From Spirochaetaceae bacterium (GTDB taxonomy: Bacteria > Spirochaetota > Spirochaetia > Treponematales > Treponemataceae): DNA of 32,597 nucleotides. Below the pieces are notes generated by a model. That model was not told the DNA's origin. It ran no database searches and saw nothing but the letters and a program-made list of their open reading frames with translations. The stretch's first letter is position 1. Every line of letters begins with the position of its first letter. Position numbers and translations under genes: made by a program. The DNA is taken from NCBI GenBank assembly GCA_017614995.1, contig JAGAAX010000008.1:1-32597 (forward strand). Reading direction: 5' to 3'. This document shows positions 1,379 through 29,072 of the stretch, piece by piece.

Positions 1379-2241
1379 TGCAAGAAACAGTACATCTTAC
1401 ACAAGAAGAACTCGATTCTCTTATAGCTCTTTTAACACAGCGCACCGGCATTATTCCGCGTTCAAGCCACCTTGAAGGCATAAAGAACTACATCGAAAAA
1501 AAGCTGACTGAAAAAGGCTTAAGCGTACCAGAATATAAGACCAAGCTTTTTGTTGACGGCGGGCTTTTTTCAGAGCTTATAAACGAAAGCACCGTAAATG
1601 AGACTTATTTTTTCCGCGAAGAAAAGCAGTTTATTCTTCTGCGCGACAGAATTCTTCCAATGTGGAAAGCAACGGCTGGCTCTATGCCGGTAAAAATCTG
1701 GAGCGCGGCTTGTTCTTATGGCGAAGAAGCTTATTCACTTGCGCTGCTTGCAAAAAGCTGCGGCGTAAACGCAATGATTACGGCAAGCGACATAAATTCG
1801 CAGGTACTTGAACATTGCAGAGCCGGTGTTTTTAAAGATTCTTCAATCAGGTCGGTAGACGGTTCTTCGTTTAAGAATCTTCTTATGCCCTACCAAAAAG
1901 AAGGAAAGATTCAGTTCGGTTCAGAAATCAGAAACTGCATAACTACAAGAGAGATTAATCTTTCTAAAATAGACGAAATGCAGACAGAAGCTCTGCTTCC
2001 AAAAAATCAGAACATTGTGTTTCTGCGCAATGTGTTCATATATTTCAGCCAGAATCTTAGACTTAAGATTCTCAATAGTATAGCGGAAAAATGCCTTGCA
2101 GACGGCGGAGTTCTTTTTGTTTCGATGAACGAAACTGCACAGATTAACTTCAACGAAATATCACCGCTGCTTGAAAAAGTCATGGACGGAAGCATTTTTT
2201 ATTTCAAGAAGAAATCACCGGAGGTAAAAGCAAATGGCTAA
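1375..2241 (+). CDS. cheR: CheR chemoreceptor methyltransferase
   Basis: Uses S-adenosylmethionine to methylate glutamates in the receptor signalling domain, opposing CheB. The N-terminal helical domain (1-75) leads into NETYFFRE (75-82), matching the CheR N-x-T-x-F-F-R motif. The SAM-binding loop is SAACSYGEEAYSLA (110-123), where most homologues have a G or T at some of these positions. ASDIN (137-141) carries the acidic ribose ligand, and FLRNVFIYF is the late signature. The first two codons are both ATG, so the start may be 1375 or 1378. It overlaps the cheB stop and its own stop overlaps the following CheA gene by eight bases. Length 288 is normal, and no TPR or VWRYW tail was recognised. 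Confidence 0.94.
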   Translation: MMQETVHLTQEELDSLIALLTQRTGIIPRSSHLEGIKNYIEKKLTEKGLSVPEYKTKLFVDGGLFSELINESTVNETYFFREEKQFILLRDRILPMWKATAGSMPVKIWSAACSYGEEAYSLALLAKSCGVNAMITASDINSQVLEHCRAGVFKDSSIRSVDGSSFKNLLMPYQKEGKIQFGSEIRNCITTREINLSKIDEMQTEALLPKNQNIVFLRNVFIYFSQNLRLKILNSIAEKCLADGGVLFVSMNETAQINFNEISPLLEKVMDGSIFYFKKKSPEVKANG

Positions 2242-4330
2242 AGTCTCATCTGATATTATAGAAAGTTTCACCGCAGAAGTTCACGAACTTCTTTCTCTTT
2301 CCCGCAAGGACATTATTGCGCTTAAAGCGGCGCAGATTGACGAAGAAACGCTTTCAAGGCTTTTGCGCAACCTTCATACCATAAAGGGAAACGCCCGAAT
2401 GCTTGAGTTTTCTACAATAGAAAAACTTGCGCACGCGGTTGAAGACATTTATAAAAGCGTAAAAGACGGAAAAATTAAGACTACAGACCGGCTTATAACG
2501 CTTGTCTGTGCGGTTGCAGACAAAATAGACGAATGTGTTGTTTCCATTACCAAAAAGGGAACAGATGAAAAAGACATTGAGCTTTATCTTCAATACTGCG
2601 ACAAGCTTGCAGCTGGAGAACTCATCGACATAGAATCTTTTGTTTCTGAAATAAAGAAGCATGAGCAAAACATAGAAGACGATGATGAGGACGAGCTCAA
2701 CGAAAATATAAGCGAAATCCAGTCAATAAGAATCAAACTTTCGCGCGTAAACGAGATTATCACTGCATTCGACACAATGATAACCAGAGAGTTTCATCTC
2801 AAGCACCAGCTCGACGAGCTGCAAAAATATGAGGAAGCCACTAAAAACCACGAGCTTGCAAAAATCCGCAAGCAGTTTGAATCTGACATTTACGCACTTG
2901 AATCTTCGATTTTCAGCGTACAGGAACAGGTCTTTAATTTAAGAATGCTCCCAATAAGCATTGTATTGAATCCGCTTGAAAATGCCATTGCGCTTGAAAG
3001 TATAAACCTTAAAAAGAAGGTCAAATGCGAGATTCCGGCAACAGACATTGCGATTGACAAAGTAATTCTTGAAGAACTCGGTGACATTCTGATGCACCTT
3101 GTAAGAAACGCACTTGACCATGGCATAGAAACTCCAAAAGAAAGAAAAGCTGCCGGAAAGCCCGAAACAGGCACAATCTCTATAACCTGTCTGCGCGAGG
3201 CAAAGCATATTGAGCTTAAAATAAGCGATGACGGCCGCGGACTTAATTACCCGAAAATCCGCGAAAAAGCCATAAAACTCTACCCTGAAAGGACAGAAGA
3301 AATTACAAACATGGGCGACCGCGAATTGTCTCAGTTTCTGTTTCAGTCGGGCTTTTCAACAAAAGACAATGTTACAGAACTTTCAGGACGCGGCGTAGGT
3401 CTTGATGTTGTCTGGTCAACAGTCGAGAAAATCAAGGGAAGAATCAAAATTGAAAGCGAAGCCGGCAAAGGCACGTCTTTTATCCTCTACTTCCCGCTTT
3501 CGCTTTCAACCTTGCAGGGGCTTTTTGTTTACTCTAACAAAGACAAATACCTTATTTCGTCTCAGCACGTTATTGACATTATATATAGAAAAAAAAGCGA
3601 ATACGTTACGCTGCAAAACCAGAGCTACATCCGCCTTGAAGGTCAGCTTATTCCATGCTACTCGCTTTCTTCTCTTTTTGACGAGCAGAAAAAAACGGAC
3701 AACTATGATGCAGACTCAATTCTCATTGCCGAATACATGGAACAGCGCATCGGTATTGTAGTAGACCAGGTGCAGCAGTTTGTTTCGCTTGTCGTCAAGC
3801 CGCTGCCAAAAGCTTTCAAGAATTTCTCTATTCTGCAGGGCATTGTCTTTGATGAGCATTACGACATCGTGCCGATTCTGCATGTACCCGACATTCTAAA
3901 GAAATTCAAGTCACTGCGCGGCTACGACATCAAGAAGTACGAAGCGGCGACAAAGAAGCGTGTTCAGCACATTCTGATTGTAGACGATTCAGAAACTACA
4001 CGCCAAATTGAAAAGTCTATTCTTGAAAACGTAGACTTTGTTGTAGACGAAGCCGTAGACGGCATTGATGCTCTCGAAAAAGCCAAAGCAAAGCAGTACG
4101 ACCTTATTTTGACCGACAAAGACATGCCGCGCATGACAGGTCTTGTGCTTTTAGACAATCTGCGCCGCATGGAACAGTACAAAGATGTGCCAGTTGTCAT
4201 TGTTTCTGCCGACCAAAGTCCTAAGACAATTGCAGACTTTAAGGCTTTGGGCGCAAACGAAGTTATTACAAAAGGCAATTTTGAGCGCGGCAAACTTATA
4301 AACACTATCAAAGCCCTGCTGAAAGACTGA
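2234..4330 (+). CDS. CheA-type histidine kinase with C-terminal receiver
   Basis: A hybrid chemosensory kinase. The Hpt domain (about 5-125) has phospho-His H48 in LHTIKGNARM. An acidic linker (about 140-160) replaces a recognisable P2 docking domain. The dimerisation helices follow, then the kinase domain with the N box LVRNALDHGIE (289-299), DDGRG (332-336), FSTKD and GRGVGLDVV. A CheW-like domain (about 423-560) and a true receiver (579-698) complete it. The receiver has D584/D585, phosphoacceptor D628 in LTDKDMP and K680. This architecture resembles ChpA or FrzE rather than flagellar CheA, whose usual treponemal partners (CheW-CheX-CheY) are absent here. Phosphate probably goes to its own receiver and to CheB, since no stand-alone CheY is encoded here. 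Confidence 0.93.
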   Translation: MAKVSSDIIESFTAEVHELLSLSRKDIIALKAAQIDEETLSRLLRNLHTIKGNARMLEFSTIEKLAHAVEDIYKSVKDGKIKTTDRLITLVCAVADKIDECVVSITKKGTDEKDIELYLQYCDKLAAGELIDIESFVSEIKKHEQNIEDDDEDELNENISEIQSIRIKLSRVNEIITAFDTMITREFHLKHQLDELQKYEEATKNHELAKIRKQFESDIYALESSIFSVQEQVFNLRMLPISIVLNPLENAIALESINLKKKVKCEIPATDIAIDKVILEELGDILMHLVRNALDHGIETPKERKAAGKPETGTISITCLREAKHIELKISDDGRGLNYPKIREKAIKLYPERTEEITNMGDRELSQFLFQSGFSTKDNVTELSGRGVGLDVVWSTVEKIKGRIKIESEAGKGTSFILYFPLSLSTLQGLFVYSNKDKYLISSQHVIDIIYRKKSEYVTLQNQSYIRLEGQLIPCYSLSSLFDEQKKTDNYDADSILIAEYMEQRIGIVVDQVQQFVSLVVKPLPKAFKNFSILQGIVFDEHYDIVPILHVPDILKKFKSLRGYDIKKYEAATKKRVQHILIVDDSETTRQIEKSILENVDFVVDEAVDGIDALEKAKAKQYDLILTDKDMPRMTGLVLLDNLRRMEQYKDVPVVIVSADQSPKTIADFKALGANEVITKGNFERGKLINTIKALLKD

Positions 4331-4345
4331 AAAGGAGAATAAAAC

Positions 4346-6193
4346 ATGAGCAAAAAAATCCTTATACTTGAAACTTCAGTTACGCTTCAAAAACTGTTTA
4401 CTACCACGCTCGACAGTGATGACTATACAATTCATTTTGTTTCAGACGGAAAAGAAGCTGTTTACAAGCTTTTTGACGTTCAGCCGGATTTGTTCCTTGT
4501 AAACACAGAAATACAGAACCCCAACGGCTTTGAAGTCGTAAGACTTGTACGCTCTATAAAATGCTTCAAAAATCTTGCAATCGGAATGTACTCAAGTTTT
4601 CCGACACCGCTGGACGAATCGCTTGCTGCAGCAAGCGGAGCGAACAGTTTTGTGCGCCTAGACCACAAAACGCTGGTGCTTAACATTGACGAACTTGCCC
4701 AAATTTCAAGCGAAAGAATCGACAAGTCTGCTGTCTCGCAGTTGAAGAAAAACCTGGACGACAATTATCTGCTTCTTCAGTCTACATCGCTTTTGTCGCA
4801 GACCGCATACAAAAACGAGCTTCTTCTAAAGCTTTCGCAGCTTGCTTCCATTATAGAAGACATAGAAGAGATGGTAAAAGCACTGCTTTTTCTTATTGCG
4901 GAAACCTGCGAAGTGCCTATAGCCGGGCTTTATATAATTGAAAATGACGGGCCGCATGGCTATTACATCTGTTCTGATAATATGCGCGAAAAAGAAATTG
5001 AGGACTTTTTAAGCGTCTGCGCCGCTGACTTTGAGAAAATTCAGCCCGATTACAATGCGTCAAAGATAAGCCCAAAATGCCTTGAACGCAAAGAAGATTT
5101 GAACCGCTTTTTCTCCGGCAAAGTGCAGCTTTCAAGCTACGAAAGCGAGTCGCTAAGAACAAGCGATGAAAGCGACTACTTCGGAAGCGTGCATATCGTT
5201 TCGGAAGGCAATATTTCCTCTGAAAAGCAGGATTTGTTCTCTTTCTGCGTAAATTCTTCAGGCGACATCTTCAGCAAGGCGCTTATCTTCAAAAAGAAGA
5301 TGTTCTTTGAAAAGCGCATCCGCCGCGCGTTCAGCCGCTTTGTTCCTGAACAGATTATAGACAGCCTCGTTTTGCAGACAGACACCTCAGACGAAAAAAT
5401 CGGTGTCGGCGAGACAAGAGCCGTTGCAATTCTTTTCAGTGACATACGTTCTTTTACAAACATAAGCGAAAAAAACAAGCCGGATGTGCTTGTTGCATTC
5501 TTGAACCGCTATTTTACTGTTATGGTTGACATCATCAAAAAGCATGGCGGCACAATCGACAAGTTTATCGGCGATGCAATTATGGCAGAATTCGGCACGC
5601 CTGTAAGTTACGAGGACAACTGCAAGAGAGCAGTTTCTGCCGCTTATGAAATGCGCGATGCTCTGCCGACGGTGGAACTCGGCGACCTTGTAATGCCTGA
5701 AGGAATGACATTCAATATCGGTATCGGCATTCATTATGGCGATGTAATCGTAGGCTCTATCGGCTCAAAAGACAAGGTTGACTATTCCGTTATAGGCGAC
5801 AACGTAAACCTTGCGAGCCGTCTTGAAGGTCTTACAAAAACTTACGGTGTGCAGCTTATCGTAAGCGACAGCGTTAAGGCAGACGCCGGTGAAGATTCGT
5901 TCTTTTTCCGCCACCTTGACGACGTGCGCGTAAAAGGCAAGAAAAACGCCGTACCGATTTACGCCGTAGACAGAAGCGCAGAAGAGTTTCCGCCAGAATA
6001 TAAGGACGCGTACACAAAAGGCATGGATTTGTACAAAAAAGGAATCTGGAACCTTTCATGCGACTACTTTAAGAAAGCACTTGAAGCCGTTAAAGACGAC
6101 AAGGCGGCAGCTCTTATGCTTGAACGCTGCGAAGAATTTATTAAGAATCCGCCTGAAAACTGGGACGGCGCGATAGCATTCCACACAAAATAA
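4346..6193 (+). CDS. Class III adenylate cyclase with N-terminal pseudo-receiver
   Basis: Predicted to make cAMP from ATP. Residues 1-125 fold like a receiver but lack its chemistry: the acidic pair is E9-T10, the phosphoacceptor position is N53, and the usual Lys is R104. Residues about 155-320 look like a GAF-type domain. The cyclase domain (about 355-545) has both metal aspartates, D366 in FSDIRSF and D410 in FIGDAIM. It also has adenine-selecting K406 and D479, and transition-state N488 and R492, so it should be active. About 550-600 resembles one TPR-like helix pair. An AAAGGAGAA site lies eight bases before the ATG. It sits between the CheA hybrid and the receptor, so cAMP is the likely output of this pathway (inference). 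Confidence 0.92.
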   Translation: MSKKILILETSVTLQKLFTTTLDSDDYTIHFVSDGKEAVYKLFDVQPDLFLVNTEIQNPNGFEVVRLVRSIKCFKNLAIGMYSSFPTPLDESLAAASGANSFVRLDHKTLVLNIDELAQISSERIDKSAVSQLKKNLDDNYLLLQSTSLLSQTAYKNELLLKLSQLASIIEDIEEMVKALLFLIAETCEVPIAGLYIIENDGPHGYYICSDNMREKEIEDFLSVCAADFEKIQPDYNASKISPKCLERKEDLNRFFSGKVQLSSYESESLRTSDESDYFGSVHIVSEGNISSEKQDLFSFCVNSSGDIFSKALIFKKKMFFEKRIRRAFSRFVPEQIIDSLVLQTDTSDEKIGVGETRAVAILFSDIRSFTNISEKNKPDVLVAFLNRYFTVMVDIIKKHGGTIDKFIGDAIMAEFGTPVSYEDNCKRAVSAAYEMRDALPTVELGDLVMPEGMTFNIGIGIHYGDVIVGSIGSKDKVDYSVIGDNVNLASRLEGLTKTYGVQLIVSDSVKADAGEDSFFFRHLDDVRVKGKKNAVPIYAVDRSAEEFPPEYKDAYTKGMDLYKKGIWNLSCDYFKKALEAVKDDKAAALMLERCEEFIKNPPENWDGAIAFHTK

Positions 6194-6220
6194 CAGAAGA
6201 AGCCCTAGAAGGAGAACAAC

Positions 6221-7744
6221 ATGAGCGTATTTAGATTTTGTACACCACTACTTTTTGCAATAACTTATGCAGGAATTTTCGTGCTGCGTATCTTTCACTA
6301 CGGCTTTGTTTATGAGCGGCCGTCTGCCATAGTGCTTGAATGTGTGCCTACTGTGCTGATTTCATGTTTTCTTATTCTTATTGTCATTATGGTTGAGCGG
6401 CCTATCTTGAAACGCTTTGACGCAATTATCAGAAAGGGCAAAAAGGACAAAACTTCTATTACACAAGACGACATTGAACAATGTATGGCGTGCTATAAAA
6501 AATTTGATATAGCTATTGCCGTCGGCGAAGCCGTAGGTTATCTGCTTGGCTGCGGCTCAACTGCAATAATTGAATCGCTCAAAGGTATTGCACCGTTTAA
6601 CCCTGCTGTTTTTGTCATTATAGAATTGCAGAGCATGGGCATGGGCTTTTTGTGCTATACAATAATTGTTTTTCTCACAAAGAAAATCCTTATGACAAGA
6701 AAAATGCGCGAAATTGGAATAGAAGTAAGCGAAAACCTTTCGCGGAATCTTTCTATTGCAATAGCAACATGCGTTTTCATTTCTGTTATGAATATGATTA
6801 CAGTTCCAATCAGTCTGATTCAGCACCCTGCTCAAAATAATTTTACCAAATTTCTTGTTTACTGCATAATCGGAGCGGCAGTAAACATTCTTGTCTGCTA
6901 TGTAACTTATTCGGTTCTTGTAAAAAAGATTCAGCGTACTGAAAAAGACATAAGCGCCAAGCTTTTTAGCGAAACCCAAAATCTTGCTGAAGCCACAAAG
7001 GAATCTGCCGAGACAAGCCACAACCAGTCTGCCGCTGTAAAAGAGATTGTCGCCACAATGCAAGACTCAACCGAGCTTGCCGGAAACATAAGCGAAAAAG
7101 TGCGTCATGTTACAAGTCTTGCCGAAAAGTCGCGCGACGCGGTTATGTCCGGCCGCGAAGCTTTGCAGAACAACGTAAACGAGCTTCTGTGCATTAAAGA
7201 GAACAACCGCCTCACCATTGAAGGCATAAAAGACCTGAACAAGAAAATAAGCAACATTTGGGATATTGTTTCAATTATTAATGTTATTGCCGACCAGACA
7301 AAAATCATCGCATTCAATGCAGAGCTTGAAGCTTCAAGTTCCGGCGAGGCGGGCAAGAATTTCCACATTGTCGCTACAGAAATCCGCCGTCTTTCTGACA
7401 ATATCATTGACAGCATTAAAGAAATCAAAGAGCGTATCAGCGAAATCCAGAAAGCCTCTGACACACTGATTCTTGACAGCGAAAAAGGTACAAACCAGAT
7501 TGATTCCGGCTACCAGAGCGCAAAAAGCCTTGAAAACGACTTTGAAAGCATTATGCATTCTTCGGAAAATACGGCAAGCAGCACTCACGAAATCTTGAAC
7601 CATGTAGGTCAGCTTTCTGTTTCAAGCGAGCAGATTCTGATTACGCTCAAACAGATTGCGGACGGTGTTGAAACATTTTCGGCATTCACATCAAATATTT
7701 CGTCTGCATCAGAAAATGTGCGCCAAATTGCGAGCCGCCTGTAA
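6221..7744 (+). CDS. Methyl-accepting chemotaxis protein with multi-pass membrane sensor region
   Basis: Residues 1-236 contain about six hydrophobic segments (roughly 6-25, 37-58, 95-117, 128-152, 176-199, 211-234) with short loops. There is no extracytoplasmic ligand domain of the usual kind, so sensing may occur within the membrane. Residues 245-507 are the long cytoplasmic coiled coil with the receptor tip at about 352-390, including VIADQTKIIAFNAELEA and GKNFHIVATEIRRL. These diverge from the common QTNLLALNAAIEAARAGE version. No HAMP domain or C-terminal CheR-binding pentapeptide is visible. A clear AAGGAGAA site precedes the ATG. It probably feeds the CheA hybrid upstream. Confidence 0.9.
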   Translation: MSVFRFCTPLLFAITYAGIFVLRIFHYGFVYERPSAIVLECVPTVLISCFLILIVIMVERPILKRFDAIIRKGKKDKTSITQDDIEQCMACYKKFDIAIAVGEAVGYLLGCGSTAIIESLKGIAPFNPAVFVIIELQSMGMGFLCYTIIVFLTKKILMTRKMREIGIEVSENLSRNLSIAIATCVFISVMNMITVPISLIQHPAQNNFTKFLVYCIIGAAVNILVCYVTYSVLVKKIQRTEKDISAKLFSETQNLAEATKESAETSHNQSAAVKEIVATMQDSTELAGNISEKVRHVTSLAEKSRDAVMSGREALQNNVNELLCIKENNRLTIEGIKDLNKKISNIWDIVSIINVIADQTKIIAFNAELEASSSGEAGKNFHIVATEIRRLSDNIIDSIKEIKERISEIQKASDTLILDSEKGTNQIDSGYQSAKSLENDFESIMHSSENTASSTHEILNHVGQLSVSSEQILITLKQIADGVETFSAFTSNISSASENVRQIASRL

Positions 7745-7746
7745 AT

Positions 7747-8496
7747 ATGAAATACCAAGATTTAGATAAATACTGGCAGAGAATTTTCAAATTGAATTGG
7801 GAATCATTATGTCAGGGCAGCAAGGCTATTTCGGCTTTGCTGATTAATGAAAACGGCGAAATAATAAGCGAAGGCAGAAATCAAGTTGGTGAATCATCAA
7901 TTCCAAATCCAAGAGTCTGCCATGCTGAAACCGAATGTATCCGCAATCTTGATATAAGAAAATACCCGGCGCTAAAAGCATACACTTTGTTTTGTGCGCT
8001 TGAACCCTGCCCTATGTGCATGGGCACTGCCGCAATGAGCGGAATTCACAATTTTGTGATTGCCTGCCGAGATGATTTTGGCGGTGCGATGGAGCTTGCG
8101 AAGCATAATAAGCTTCTTCAGAGCAGAAAATTCAATATTACCTGGCTGCCACAGGAATTTGGTGATATTCAGCGCGGATTTCAGTTTCTAAAGGAACTGC
8201 TTTTTGAACCCCGGAAAGAAAAACTTGCCGAAATCGAAAAAGACTTTTCTGTTTATAATAAAGCTGGTGTTGAAGCCGCAAAATCAATTTATAATGACGG
8301 CTGGTTCAGCTCAAAAAAAGCTTCTGATTATTCTGTAGAAGAAATTTTTGATGAATTTGCTGCCCGGCTTGAAGGAAAATCAACAACCTCGCCGCAAAGC
8401 GACGAGGTATGTTGTTCTCAAAAGGAATTGCACTCGGGTTTGATACCCTTTGTTTCGACGCAGAGCGTCGGGGTATCAAACCCTCGGCACGAATGA
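7747..8496 (+). CDS. Cytidine/deoxycytidylate deaminase-family protein with repeat-derived tail
   Basis: A zinc-dependent nucleoside or base deaminase: zinc ligands H59, C88 and C91 (CHAETE and PCPMC) and proton shuttle E61 are all present. The substrate cannot be told from the sequence; guanine, tRNA adenosine and free cytosine deaminases share this core. The start lies two bases after the receptor stop without a good Shine-Dalgarno sequence, suggesting coupled translation. The last 38 or so codons (from about residue 212) run through two perfect palindromes at 8382-8483 and read as low-similarity sequence. The original protein probably ended near residue 210, and the tail was added by repeat insertion. 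Confidence 0.8.
   Translation: MKYQDLDKYWQRIFKLNWESLCQGSKAISALLINENGEIISEGRNQVGESSIPNPRVCHAETECIRNLDIRKYPALKAYTLFCALEPCPMCMGTAAMSGIHNFVIACRDDFGGAMELAKHNKLLQSRKFNITWLPQEFGDIQRGFQFLKELLFEPRKEKLAEIEKDFSVYNKAGVEAAKSIYNDGWFSSKKASDYSVEEIFDEFAARLEGKSTTSPQSDEVCCSQKELHSGLIPFVSTQSVGVSNPRHE
8382..8483. repeat. Nested palindromic repeat inside the 3' end of the deaminase gene
   Basis: Two hairpins side by side. The first has arms CCTCG (8387-8391) and CGAGG (8403-8407), flanked by AACAA (8382-8386) and TTGTT (8412-8416). The second has perfect 13-base arms at 8436-8448 and 8471-8483 (GGGTTTGATACCC and its complement). Inside it is a smaller perfect stem, CGACGC/GCGTCG (8456-8461, 8465-8470), with an AGA loop. 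The pattern suggests a mobile or dispersed palindromic element rather than a simple terminator, as no T-run follows. Confidence 0.8.
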
Positions 8497-12472: not shown

Positions 12473-12568
12473 GCTACGAAATAATGTGAAATTAAACTAT
12501 AAATTTATGGAACATATAACAGGTCTGCTGTATAATTGAACTACCGTTTCAAAGGAATGCGGATAAAA

Positions 12569-14383
12569 ATGTTTATAAACAAACTGAACCAACTCTACAA
12601 ACCGAAAAGAACCCTATATTACATAGAAGCTGACAGCGAAAAGCTCAAAGCATTTTTTAAGGGCACTTTACCCAAAGAAATTGCAAAGTACGCAGACGCT
12701 TTCGGCACTTATGATTATCCGGGCGTTTTCTTCATCCGTCAGCTTGAAAAAGAAGTTATTGGCATTGAATTCAGAAGCGGCGACAAAAGAATAGACTACC
12801 CCACCGGGCTTAAATCAATTGAGCTTGAAGAAGCTTTCTTTTATTCAGTTGAATTCGACGATGACATACACATAAGCAGAACATTTATCCGCGAACTTTT
12901 TGAAAAAATCTCAAAAGATGACGACGCGCACCGCGCATATTCAGACTTAAGCATTAACAAAAGCCCGAACGCCATCGGTGTTTTTTCAAGCTATAAGAAA
13001 ATCAGAGTGCTCTACGAATGGAAGCTTGAAAGCGACCGGGCTTCTGACATAATTAATGATAATATAGAGAAATTTGATAAAACCGCACTGTATAAAGCCG
13101 CATTTTTTGATCCGATTACAAACCACAGCAACTGGAATCATCTTGTGCCCTATCTTGAAATGCCTGTGAAAGCAAATATTCAGGATTATGCTTTTGTGCA
13201 TTTTGACGTAAAAGAATTCAGAATCATCAACGAGGTTTACGGCCACATTGCGGCAAACAAAGTGCTTTCAAAAATCGTAAAAGCCATGAACGACGCTGAT
13301 TTTGTTTATGCCAGCGCGCGCTGCCACAATGACAATTTCGCCATGATTATAAAAGACATGCCTGAAGCCGAAACGCTTGCGAAGCTTCAAAAATTCTTTG
13401 ATGATTTGTCATATCTTGAAGAAGACCCCAACTACAGAATTTATTACCGCTGCGGTCTTGTGCCGATGCAGCGCGCTATGCTTTCAGGCAACAGAGTAGC
13501 TGACGCTGGAAAAATGGCGCAGGGGCTCGGCAACAGCACTAACAAAACCGACATCATCATATACACAGATAAAATGCACAACGATATTTTATGGGGAAAC
13601 TACATAAAAGCCTATGTTGATACGGCAATTAAAAATGACGAATTTATCGTGTATCTTCAGCCTAAGTTTGATATTCATACTGAAAAGATTAAGGGAGCAG
13701 AGGCGCTTATCCGGTGGAACTACAAATCAAAGGAATTTCTTTCGCCGGGGCGGTTTATTCCATTTTTTGAAAAAGACGGCAATATTGCAAAGATTGATGA
13801 TCTTGTTTTGAAAAAAGTCTGCGAGAGTTTTGCAAAATGGAAGTCTGAAGGAAAAGAGCTTTACCCGGTTTCGGTCAATTTGTCGCGGAACCAGCTTTAT
13901 GACAAAAATCTTATAGACCATCTGGTTGAAATTGTGGATTCTTACGCTATAGACCACGCTCTTATAGATTTTGAACTGACCGAAAGTGCCACCTACGATG
14001 ACATGTCTTATATGATTGAGGTGCTGCACACTTTGCGGCAGAAAGGCTTTAAGATTTCCATGGACGATTTCGGCACAGGCTATTCGTCGCTTTCGCTGCT
14101 TACAGAGATGCCGCTTGATACTCTGAAAATTGACAAAAGCTTTGTGGATAAAGTTGGAACAGACACAGAAAACATAAAAGACCTTGCCGTTATAAGGCAC
14201 ATAATCTCGCTTGCAAAAGAGCTGCATTTTACATGCCTTGCAGAGGGCGCAGAACAAAAATGCCAGATAGAAAAACTCCGCTCGCTCGGCTGCGAAGTGA
14301 TTCAGGGCTATTATTACAGCAAGCCGCTTCCAATTGCCGAGTACGAGCAGAAATACTTGAGCGGCGAGCCTTTCACTTTTTGA
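12569..14383 (+). CDS. EAL-domain c-di-GMP phosphodiesterase with degenerate GGDEF domain
   Basis: Predicted to break down the second messenger cyclic di-GMP. An N-terminal region of about 160 residues is not recognised. The GGDEF-type domain follows, with signature DPITNHSNWNHL, but its active-site loop reads CHNDNF, so it cannot be a working cyclase. The EAL domain (from about 13690) has AEALIRW, FELTES, MDDFGTGYSSL and KIDKSF, with AEGAEQ in place of AEGVET, then IQGYYYSKP. The catalytic set looks intact. The frame is open from a TTG at 12536 inside a TATAAT box; ATG 12557 touches the AAAGGA site, so 12569 is preferred, though 12557 is possible. Its end overlaps the convergent AraC gene by 11 bases. 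Confidence 0.9.
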   Translation: MFINKLNQLYKPKRTLYYIEADSEKLKAFFKGTLPKEIAKYADAFGTYDYPGVFFIRQLEKEVIGIEFRSGDKRIDYPTGLKSIELEEAFFYSVEFDDDIHISRTFIRELFEKISKDDDAHRAYSDLSINKSPNAIGVFSSYKKIRVLYEWKLESDRASDIINDNIEKFDKTALYKAAFFDPITNHSNWNHLVPYLEMPVKANIQDYAFVHFDVKEFRIINEVYGHIAANKVLSKIVKAMNDADFVYASARCHNDNFAMIIKDMPEAETLAKLQKFFDDLSYLEEDPNYRIYYRCGLVPMQRAMLSGNRVADAGKMAQGLGNSTNKTDIIIYTDKMHNDILWGNYIKAYVDTAIKNDEFIVYLQPKFDIHTEKIKGAEALIRWNYKSKEFLSPGRFIPFFEKDGNIAKIDDLVLKKVCESFAKWKSEGKELYPVSVNLSRNQLYDKNLIDHLVEIVDSYAIDHALIDFELTESATYDDMSYMIEVLHTLRQKGFKISMDDFGTGYSSLSLLTEMPLDTLKIDKSFVDKVGTDTENIKDLAVIRHIISLAKELHFTCLAEGAEQKCQIEKLRSLGCEVIQGYYYSKPLPIAEYEQKYLSGEPFTF

Positions 14384-28118: not shown

Positions 28119-29072
28119 ATGATGAAAAAGAACATAAATATTTACAACAGCCAAGATGAATATCTTGCACAGATGAAAAGCGGTGCGCTGCTTAATCCGC
28201 GCATAGATTCGACTTTTAAGGCATTGTTCACACAGCCTACAGCGGAATCGCGGAATGCACTACACTCGTTTTTGGAAGCTGCCACAGAACGCAAAATTAA
28301 GTCGGTGGAGCTTACGGCGAATGAAGCGCCTATATCATTTGAAAAGCAGCGCGGCGTGAGCTACGATATTCTGTGCATTTTTGATGACGGGCAGCCTGCA
28401 AACCTTGAAATGATGGCTTTTAATCAATTTTATGATTATGGGAAAAGAGCTGAATACCAAGTTGCAAGGCTTGAAACAACTTATCTCAAGAAAGGCGACA
28501 CTTGGGAAAAAGCTCCGAAAGTTTATCAGATTACGGTGTTAGATTTTGTGTTTGACAAAAGCTCAAATGATGCAGTCAGCCGCTATGCAATGCGCACAGC
28601 GGACAACCGCGAGCTTTCTGATACGCTCAATATCATTTTTATTGAGCTGCCCAAAGTCACCAAGCTTGAGAACAGCATTGAGAAGAACACAGCTTTAGAA
28701 AACTGGGCGATTTTCTTGAAAGAAGCTGATAATCCGAAGAAAAAAGGGATTATACAGAAACTAACCGAACAGGAGGCAGGACTTATGAACGCAAAACAGT
28801 CACTTTCTTCGATAAGTGCAAACCAAGACTTATGGGTTGAGCAGTTCAGACAAGAAATGTTTGAACGCGACTACCGTTCAGGCTTAAGCGCTGCCGAAAA
28901 CCGCGGCATCGCCATTGGTGAAGCTAGAGGTGAGAAACGAGGACGCACTGAAGCTAAGCTCGATGATGCACGTAAAATGATTCTGAAACACATCGGCACA
29001 ATAGAACAAATAGCTGAAGTCACAGATCTTCCGCTTGAAACTGTGCAAAAGCTCGCTGAAAAGCTTAACTAA
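28119..29072 (+). CDS. Rpn-family nuclease/transposase-like protein (PD-(D/E)xK)
   Basis: Belongs to the recombination-promoting nuclease group once annotated as transposases. The N-terminus reads NPRIDSTFKALF (D30), typical of the family. SYDILCIFDDG gives D83 and NLEMMAF gives E97, in the place of the usual E-x-Q, so the Q position is Met. The Y-x-K-R-A-E-Y-Q-x-A segment follows as expected. The C-terminal part has a long helix, the G-E-K-R-G-R linker and a degenerate helix-turn-helix (IEQIAEVTDLPLETVQKLAEKL). The first two codons are both ATG and there is no Shine-Dalgarno sequence; the upstream region is very AT-rich. Likely a multicopy gene in the genome, which would need checking. Confidence 0.82.
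   Translation: MMKKNINIYNSQDEYLAQMKSGALLNPRIDSTFKALFTQPTAESRNALHSFLEAATERKIKSVELTANEAPISFEKQRGVSYDILCIFDDGQPANLEMMAFNQFYDYGKRAEYQVARLETTYLKKGDTWEKAPKVYQITVLDFVFDKSSNDAVSRYAMRTADNRELSDTLNIIFIELPKVTKLENSIEKNTALENWAIFLKEADNPKKKGIIQKLTEQEAGLMNAKQSLSSISANQDLWVEQFRQEMFERDYRSGLSAAENRGIAIGEARGEKRGRTEAKLDDARKMILKHIGTIEQIAEVTDLPLETVQKLAEKLN

Follow-up and report, generated by a model that had tools for sequence, protein, structure and literature searches.

The N-terminal domain of a predicted adenylyl cyclase encoded next to cheA in a contig of the gut-type Treponema lineage appears to be a pseudo-receiver, that is, a receiver fold that cannot undergo normal Asp phosphorylation. We consider it somewhat more probable than not that this domain serves as a docking or allosteric module, which reads the state of the neighbouring CheA by contact. 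The contig is the window, meaning the whole stretch of DNA that was analysed (32,597 nucleotides, 32.6 kb), and its first 7.7 kb form a single operon with the order CheW-like gene (cut), cheB, cheR, cheA, cyclase and membrane chemoreceptor. The genes of this operon and their domains lie on the forward strand. The junctions from cheB through cheR and cheA to the cyclase gene are overlaps or a 15-nt gap, and the cyclase ORF (4346-6193, 615 aa) starts 15 nt past cheA behind a good to strong ribosome-binding site, AAAAGGAG. Its closest named relative (77% identity) comes from a Treponema MAG of roe deer reticulum.

Regarding the chemosensory components, the CheW-like gene (58-348) has lost its 5′ part at the contig start and was assigned by synteny with genes of 165-174 aa located before cheB; Pfam gives no match for the fragment, and a CheW match is present at the equivalent place in G002:C24. 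CheB methylesterase (356-1378), CheR methyltransferase (1375-2241) and CheA (2234-4330) were identified by Pfam. CheA comprises an Hpt domain with H48 (2255-2512), a HATPase domain (3083-3502), a CheW/P5 domain (3515-3904) and a C-terminal receiver (3971-4309). N292 and the G1 and G2 boxes are present, and P3 is recognised by alignment only, so that P1, P3, P4 and P5 of a complete CheA are accompanied by CheB, CheR and a receptor. The CheA receiver carries the canonical DD/D/S/K set and is the only fully canonical phosphoacceptor site of the locus, as the CheB receiver (D7, A8, D53, A80 and K100) is missing the second acidic residue. Examination of ORFs, Pfam matches and synteny revealed no stand-alone receiver in the operon, and the rest of the genome could hold one. 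The operon ends with a membrane-bound methyl-accepting chemoreceptor (6221-7744; Pfam MCPsignal and hydropathy), which has about five hydrophobic segments without a large periplasmic domain and is possibly a membrane-embedded sensor. Elsewhere, the window contains a transposase of the PD-(D/E)XK nuclease family (PDDEXK_2, 28119-29072).

The cyclase N-terminus (residues 1-120, 4346-4705) was modelled by AlphaFold2 as a clean (βα)5 fold with a pLDDT of 90.2 and a pTM of 0.85. Structure searches with Foldseek and VIA returned mostly receivers as top matches, namely WspR, PleD, DivK, YycF and CheY, with Z of about 19 (17.6-19.7), and the Pfam Response_reg profile matched with an E-value of 6.4e-7 and 30.0 bits, marginally below the cut-off of 30.2. 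A sequence-only reading of this DNA had already proposed a receiver-like fold with E-T in the acidic pocket and Asn at the phosphoacceptor position, and the alignment bears this out. E9 and T10 (4370-4375) stand in place of the acidic pair, which is DD or ED in other families (EN in one locus, L047); N53 (AAC, 4502-4504) occupies the phosphoacceptor position; and S83 (4592-4594) falls in the Thr/Ser switch column. The same reading had the conserved Lys replaced by Arg, which is off by one residue. In the Lys column, as set by canonical orthologues such as L044 (SGACAFVVKD) and L048 (AGADAYLEKS) in an alignment with L044-L050, the window has L105 (CTA, 4658-4660), and R104 (4655-4657) is the residue just before it. 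Position 104 is variable among relatives that share Asn53 (R in 70% of those whose CheA has a kinase, H in 40% of those whose CheA has lost it), and R104 was therefore ruled out as a stand-in for the Lys. The domain thus combines two of the features by which Bourret et al. (2025) define pseudo-receivers, a (βα)5 fold recognisable as a receiver and a lack of residues central to phosphotransfer (DD, D, T, K). Neither the second acid nor the acceptor Asp nor the Lys is left, which would bar standard phosphorylation chemistry, in agreement with the earlier claim that the domain cannot take phosphate in the normal way; the altered state is fixed across a large clade.

By its sequence, the remainder of the protein is a working enzyme. 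Residues about 173-320 (4862-5305) probably form a GAF-like α/β region, judging from the order of helices and strands in the full model; Pfam gives no match for this region, and Foldseek with the full-length model finds cyclases and phytochrome-cyclase fusions, with a high rmsd wherever the match is long, which keeps the GAF-like assignment provisional. A long helix or coiled-coil linker in the AlphaFold2 model (residues 292-329, 5219-5332) leads to the class III adenylyl cyclase domain (residues 356-542, 5411-5971), which is supported by Pfam Guanylate_cyc (5.5e-27) and by the PDB entries 6fht, 2w01 and 3r5g. The metal Asp pair, the base-selecting Lys and Asp, and the transition-state Asn and Arg are all present (D366, K406, D410, D479, N488 and R492). 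The adenylyl/guanylyl cyclase 6FHT likewise has Lys at the position of K406, where the guanylyl cyclase Cya2 (2W01) has Glu. As the sequence-only reading had stated, the domain is predicted to be active; its product would be cAMP. Almost all homologues preserve the six catalytic residues, whereas their receiver sites vary; together with the open frames, the intact residues rule out decay of the whole gene. The protein ends in a helical repeat (AlphaFold2 helices 550-600) and a conserved tail of the PPENWDGAI..TK type (5993-6190), with P603, W606, D607 and K615 as conserved columns.

A profile of the receiver and GAF-like region was run over 274 genomes of the family and, combined with earlier sets, yielded 137 cyclases. 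A CheA-type gene lies directly upstream of 133 of them; of the other four, three are cut off from their neighbours by the end of a contig, and the fourth follows another cyclase gene in tandem. Such tandem cyclase pairs after cheA are found in distant Spirochaetes (L069, 9104-12165; L257, 1-2736), and both cyclases of L069 have changed catalytic positions, perhaps as a catalytic/regulatory pair. On a tree built from the cyclase protein minus its receiver, the window falls in a clade of 77 rows (support 100) with Asn at position 53 in 75, Thr in one and His in one, which rules out a sequencing error or chance at codon 53. Asn53 is a fixed trait of this clade. Within this clade, the position of the second acid is T, S, P, N or A, and the Lys position is L, F, I, M or Y. 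The sister group of 40 rows is mixed at position 53 (D in 20, Y in 9, S in 4, N in 3, E in 2, and G and F in one each); in the nine loci with Tyr (L058, L061, L188 and relatives) the same loss has ended differently. Both the Asp and the Lys are kept, with CheA upstream, in 11 loci of outer clades (L044-L050, L059, L060, L062 and L064) and in L255 and L256 from other families of the phylum. In all 13 of these other-family loci position 53 is Asp and the canonical site is full or nearly so, the exception being L047, where the second acid is missing. On the tree, the Lys column changes a single time. Asp at position 53 in relatives had been named beforehand as evidence against the lost site; it does occur there, in half of the sister group and throughout the other families, and the claim stands all the same, since this distribution implies that a phosphorylatable receiver was lost inside the Treponemataceae, the direction of change being inferred from the other families.

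The CheA proteins upstream of these cyclases fall into distinct states. In the 48 loci of the Asn53 clade with a kinase, H48 is kept where readable and the N, G1 and G2 boxes are kept, with poor alignment at G2 in L172 as the sole case; the D, D, D, K set of the CheA receiver is canonical in all 47 that are readable. In 27 other loci of the clade the HATPase domain of CheA is gone and S, C, E, K or F stands in place of the Hpt His. These proteins, mostly about 480-590 aa (e.g., L055, 8449-10008, and L056, 8518-10008, with 25 more loci), retain the CheW domain, a canonical receiver and the adjacent cyclase, and still hold remnants of Hpt and P3; the CheA of the window differs in having a complete kinase. 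A tree of the CheW domain and receiver groups the 27 loci into one clade with support 100 and one change, from which the deletion of the kinase is seen as a single event inside the Asn53 clade. Nearly every locus keeps the acidic pair, acceptor Asp and Lys of the CheA receiver. Among kinase-deleted loci this holds for 26 of the 26 that are readable, which makes it unlikely that the CheA receiver is a mere phosphate sink. The genomes with kinase-less loci, plus G002, were searched for another CheA, and 25 of the 29 encode a separate CheA-type protein of 790-860 aa. The CheB receiver is often degenerate in the kinase-positive part of the clade (acceptor D to G in 25/44), and in the kinase-deleted part it has the acidic pair and acceptor Asp in 23/23 and the Lys in 21/23. 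A further locus, L036 from the genus of the window, has a CheA (5745-7835) with degenerate kinase boxes, Hpt His replaced by Arg and receiver Asp replaced by Ala, with cyclase, CheB and CheR intact; it is a second degeneration of CheA, independent of the 27-locus deletion. All kinase-less loci have Asn53.

The constant pairing of cheA with the cyclase gene and the kinase-less clade favour contact of the pseudo-receiver with a CheA-derived scaffold. The protein would be the output enzyme of a chemosensory array, composed of pseudo-receiver, GAF-like region and adenylyl cyclase, and this array is probably not a motility one. In the window, phosphate would most likely stop at CheA's own receiver; the pseudo-receiver may bind the CheA encoded next door and sense the phosphorylated or unphosphorylated shape of its receiver and/or P3-CheW core, and that state may pass through the coiled coil to the cyclase. 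In the kinase-less sub-clade, the CheA remnant may act as a CheV-like adaptor (CheW and receiver); phosphate for its receiver would come from a different kinase, the simplest candidate being the cell's main CheA. The cAMP formed would be read by some of the cNMP-binding proteins, of which the genome of the window has about seven, beside three CheA-sized proteins with CheW domains. The same contig encodes a GGDEF-EAL protein (12536-14383), placing c-di-GMP signalling near the cAMP operon.

As for the contact surface, in three groups the evolutionary rate of the pseudo-receiver tracks that of the CheW (P5) domain of CheA (partial r 0.18-0.25, p 0.002-0.02), a weak, correlational signal that is also found for other domain pairs (GAF-like region, CheB), and in the kinase-deleted group it is the P3 region that tracks the pseudo-receiver most strongly. 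No rate covariation was found between the CheA receiver and the pseudo-receiver (partial r -0.10 to -0.20), which weakens the case for a receiver-receiver interface and leaves the CheA receiver without support from this quarter as a clear contact surface. The sequence-only reading had named the CheA receiver among the possible contacts. Its phosphosite, kept without a kinase, speaks for that proposal, and the rates, which follow the CheW-like P5 instead, speak weakly against it. In L036, the loss of the receiver Asp means that no phosphate signal can enter via CheA, at least there. A more far-reaching suggestion, which we offer only tentatively, is that the array itself contributes hardly any phosphotransfer, or none, to the control of its adenylyl cyclase, Asn53 having come first and the single kinase deletion in 27 loci afterwards, and that L036 signals by conformation alone.

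The earlier statement that control must come by protein contact was too strong, because control by a ligand or by the GAF-like region is possible as well. A small-molecule sensor, in which cyclase activity would depend on a putative ligand held in the old pocket (E9, S11, N53 and Y82), is an unlikely alternative. These residues are strongly kept in the Asn53 clade despite lost catalysis (E9 100%, S11 88-100%, N53 95-100% and Y82 88-100%), and the pseudo-receiver of ShkA, which binds c-di-GMP, provides a precedent (PMC7010744); the residues may, however, be structural, and the strict pairing with cheA would be left unexplained. Rather unlikely, too, is a structural or dimerisation relic with the cyclase controlled by the GAF-like region or cellular conditions. 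Mean pairwise identity in the kinase-positive Asn53 clade is lower for the pseudo-receiver (56%) than for the cyclase domain (83%), as a relic would predict, but it exceeds that of the GAF-like region (49%), and the near-invariant helix 1 positions T13, Q15, K16 and F18 (97-100%) suggest a maintained surface. That the pseudo-receiver locks the cyclase permanently on, with cAMP set by expression level or phosphodiesterases, is among the mechanisms given for bacterial pseudo-receivers (PMC12632262), yet it appears improbable here, as the retained receptors, CheB, CheR and CheA of the operon would have no explanation. Residual phosphorylation, for example via deamidation of N53 to Asp or on an adjacent Ser/Thr, is hardly credible: Asn is isosteric with Asp and T54 adjoins N53 in the window, but the Mg-binding second acid and the Lys are replaced throughout the clade as listed above, and residue 54 is unconserved in its kinase-positive part. 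Contact with CheA, a plausible interpretation to which the kinase-less clade lends strength, is the one we favour.

About 6% of bacterial receivers are pseudo-receivers, and a 2025 review called the way in which they are switched "a mystery" (PMC12632262). The locus described here offers a graded series in one syntenic setting, from a canonical receiver to a degenerate receiver with active CheA, then to a degenerate receiver with kinase-deleted CheA, and finally to a degenerate receiver beside a CheA with dead kinase, Hpt and receiver. With such a series, homologous proteins allow a direct test of pseudo-receiver switching. Every CheA homologue was reported to have a kinase domain in a survey of CheA architectures (PMC10782961); the kinase-deleted CheA beside a cyclase departs from it and is worth checking. 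The open-licence papers searched describe neither an adenylyl cyclase linked to CheA in spirochaetes nor a cyclase partnered by a kinase-less CheA, and the kinase-deleted CheA-cyclase loci look undescribed within that literature.

Among known systems, CheV resembles the kinase-less CheA remnants of the related loci in joining a CheW-like domain to a canonical receiver, whereas the remnants arose from CheA by kinase deletion and retain Hpt and P3 traces. The Pil-Chp system of Pseudomonas, which acts on CyaB via PilG (PMC12632253), is similar in that a receiver-bearing CheA ultimately controls an adenylyl cyclase. There, a separate response regulator, PilG, activates CyaB; here, the cyclase itself carries a degenerate receiver beside cheA, and no PilG-type regulator driving it lies within the operon. 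FrzS of Myxococcus, which also belongs to a chemosensory system, has a receiver that works independently of phosphorylation (PMC1974792) and likewise combines a receiver fold with loss of the second acidic residue and the acceptor Asp. In contrast, the Lys is still present in FrzS, a polar motility protein that contains a coiled coil, while the present pseudo-receiver is part of a nucleotide cyclase and has CheA as its partner. The closest known mechanism is that of PleD, in which phosphorylation of the receiver alters its contact with a pseudo-receiver and thereby switches a diguanylate cyclase (PMC12632262). In both cases a pseudo-receiver would relay the phosphorylation of an adjacent receiver to a cyclase. 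PleD, however, holds receiver, pseudo-receiver and GGDEF domain in one chain with c-di-GMP as output, whereas the protein described here has one receiver domain and a class III cyclase, its true receiver would be supplied in trans by CheA, and its predicted output is cAMP.
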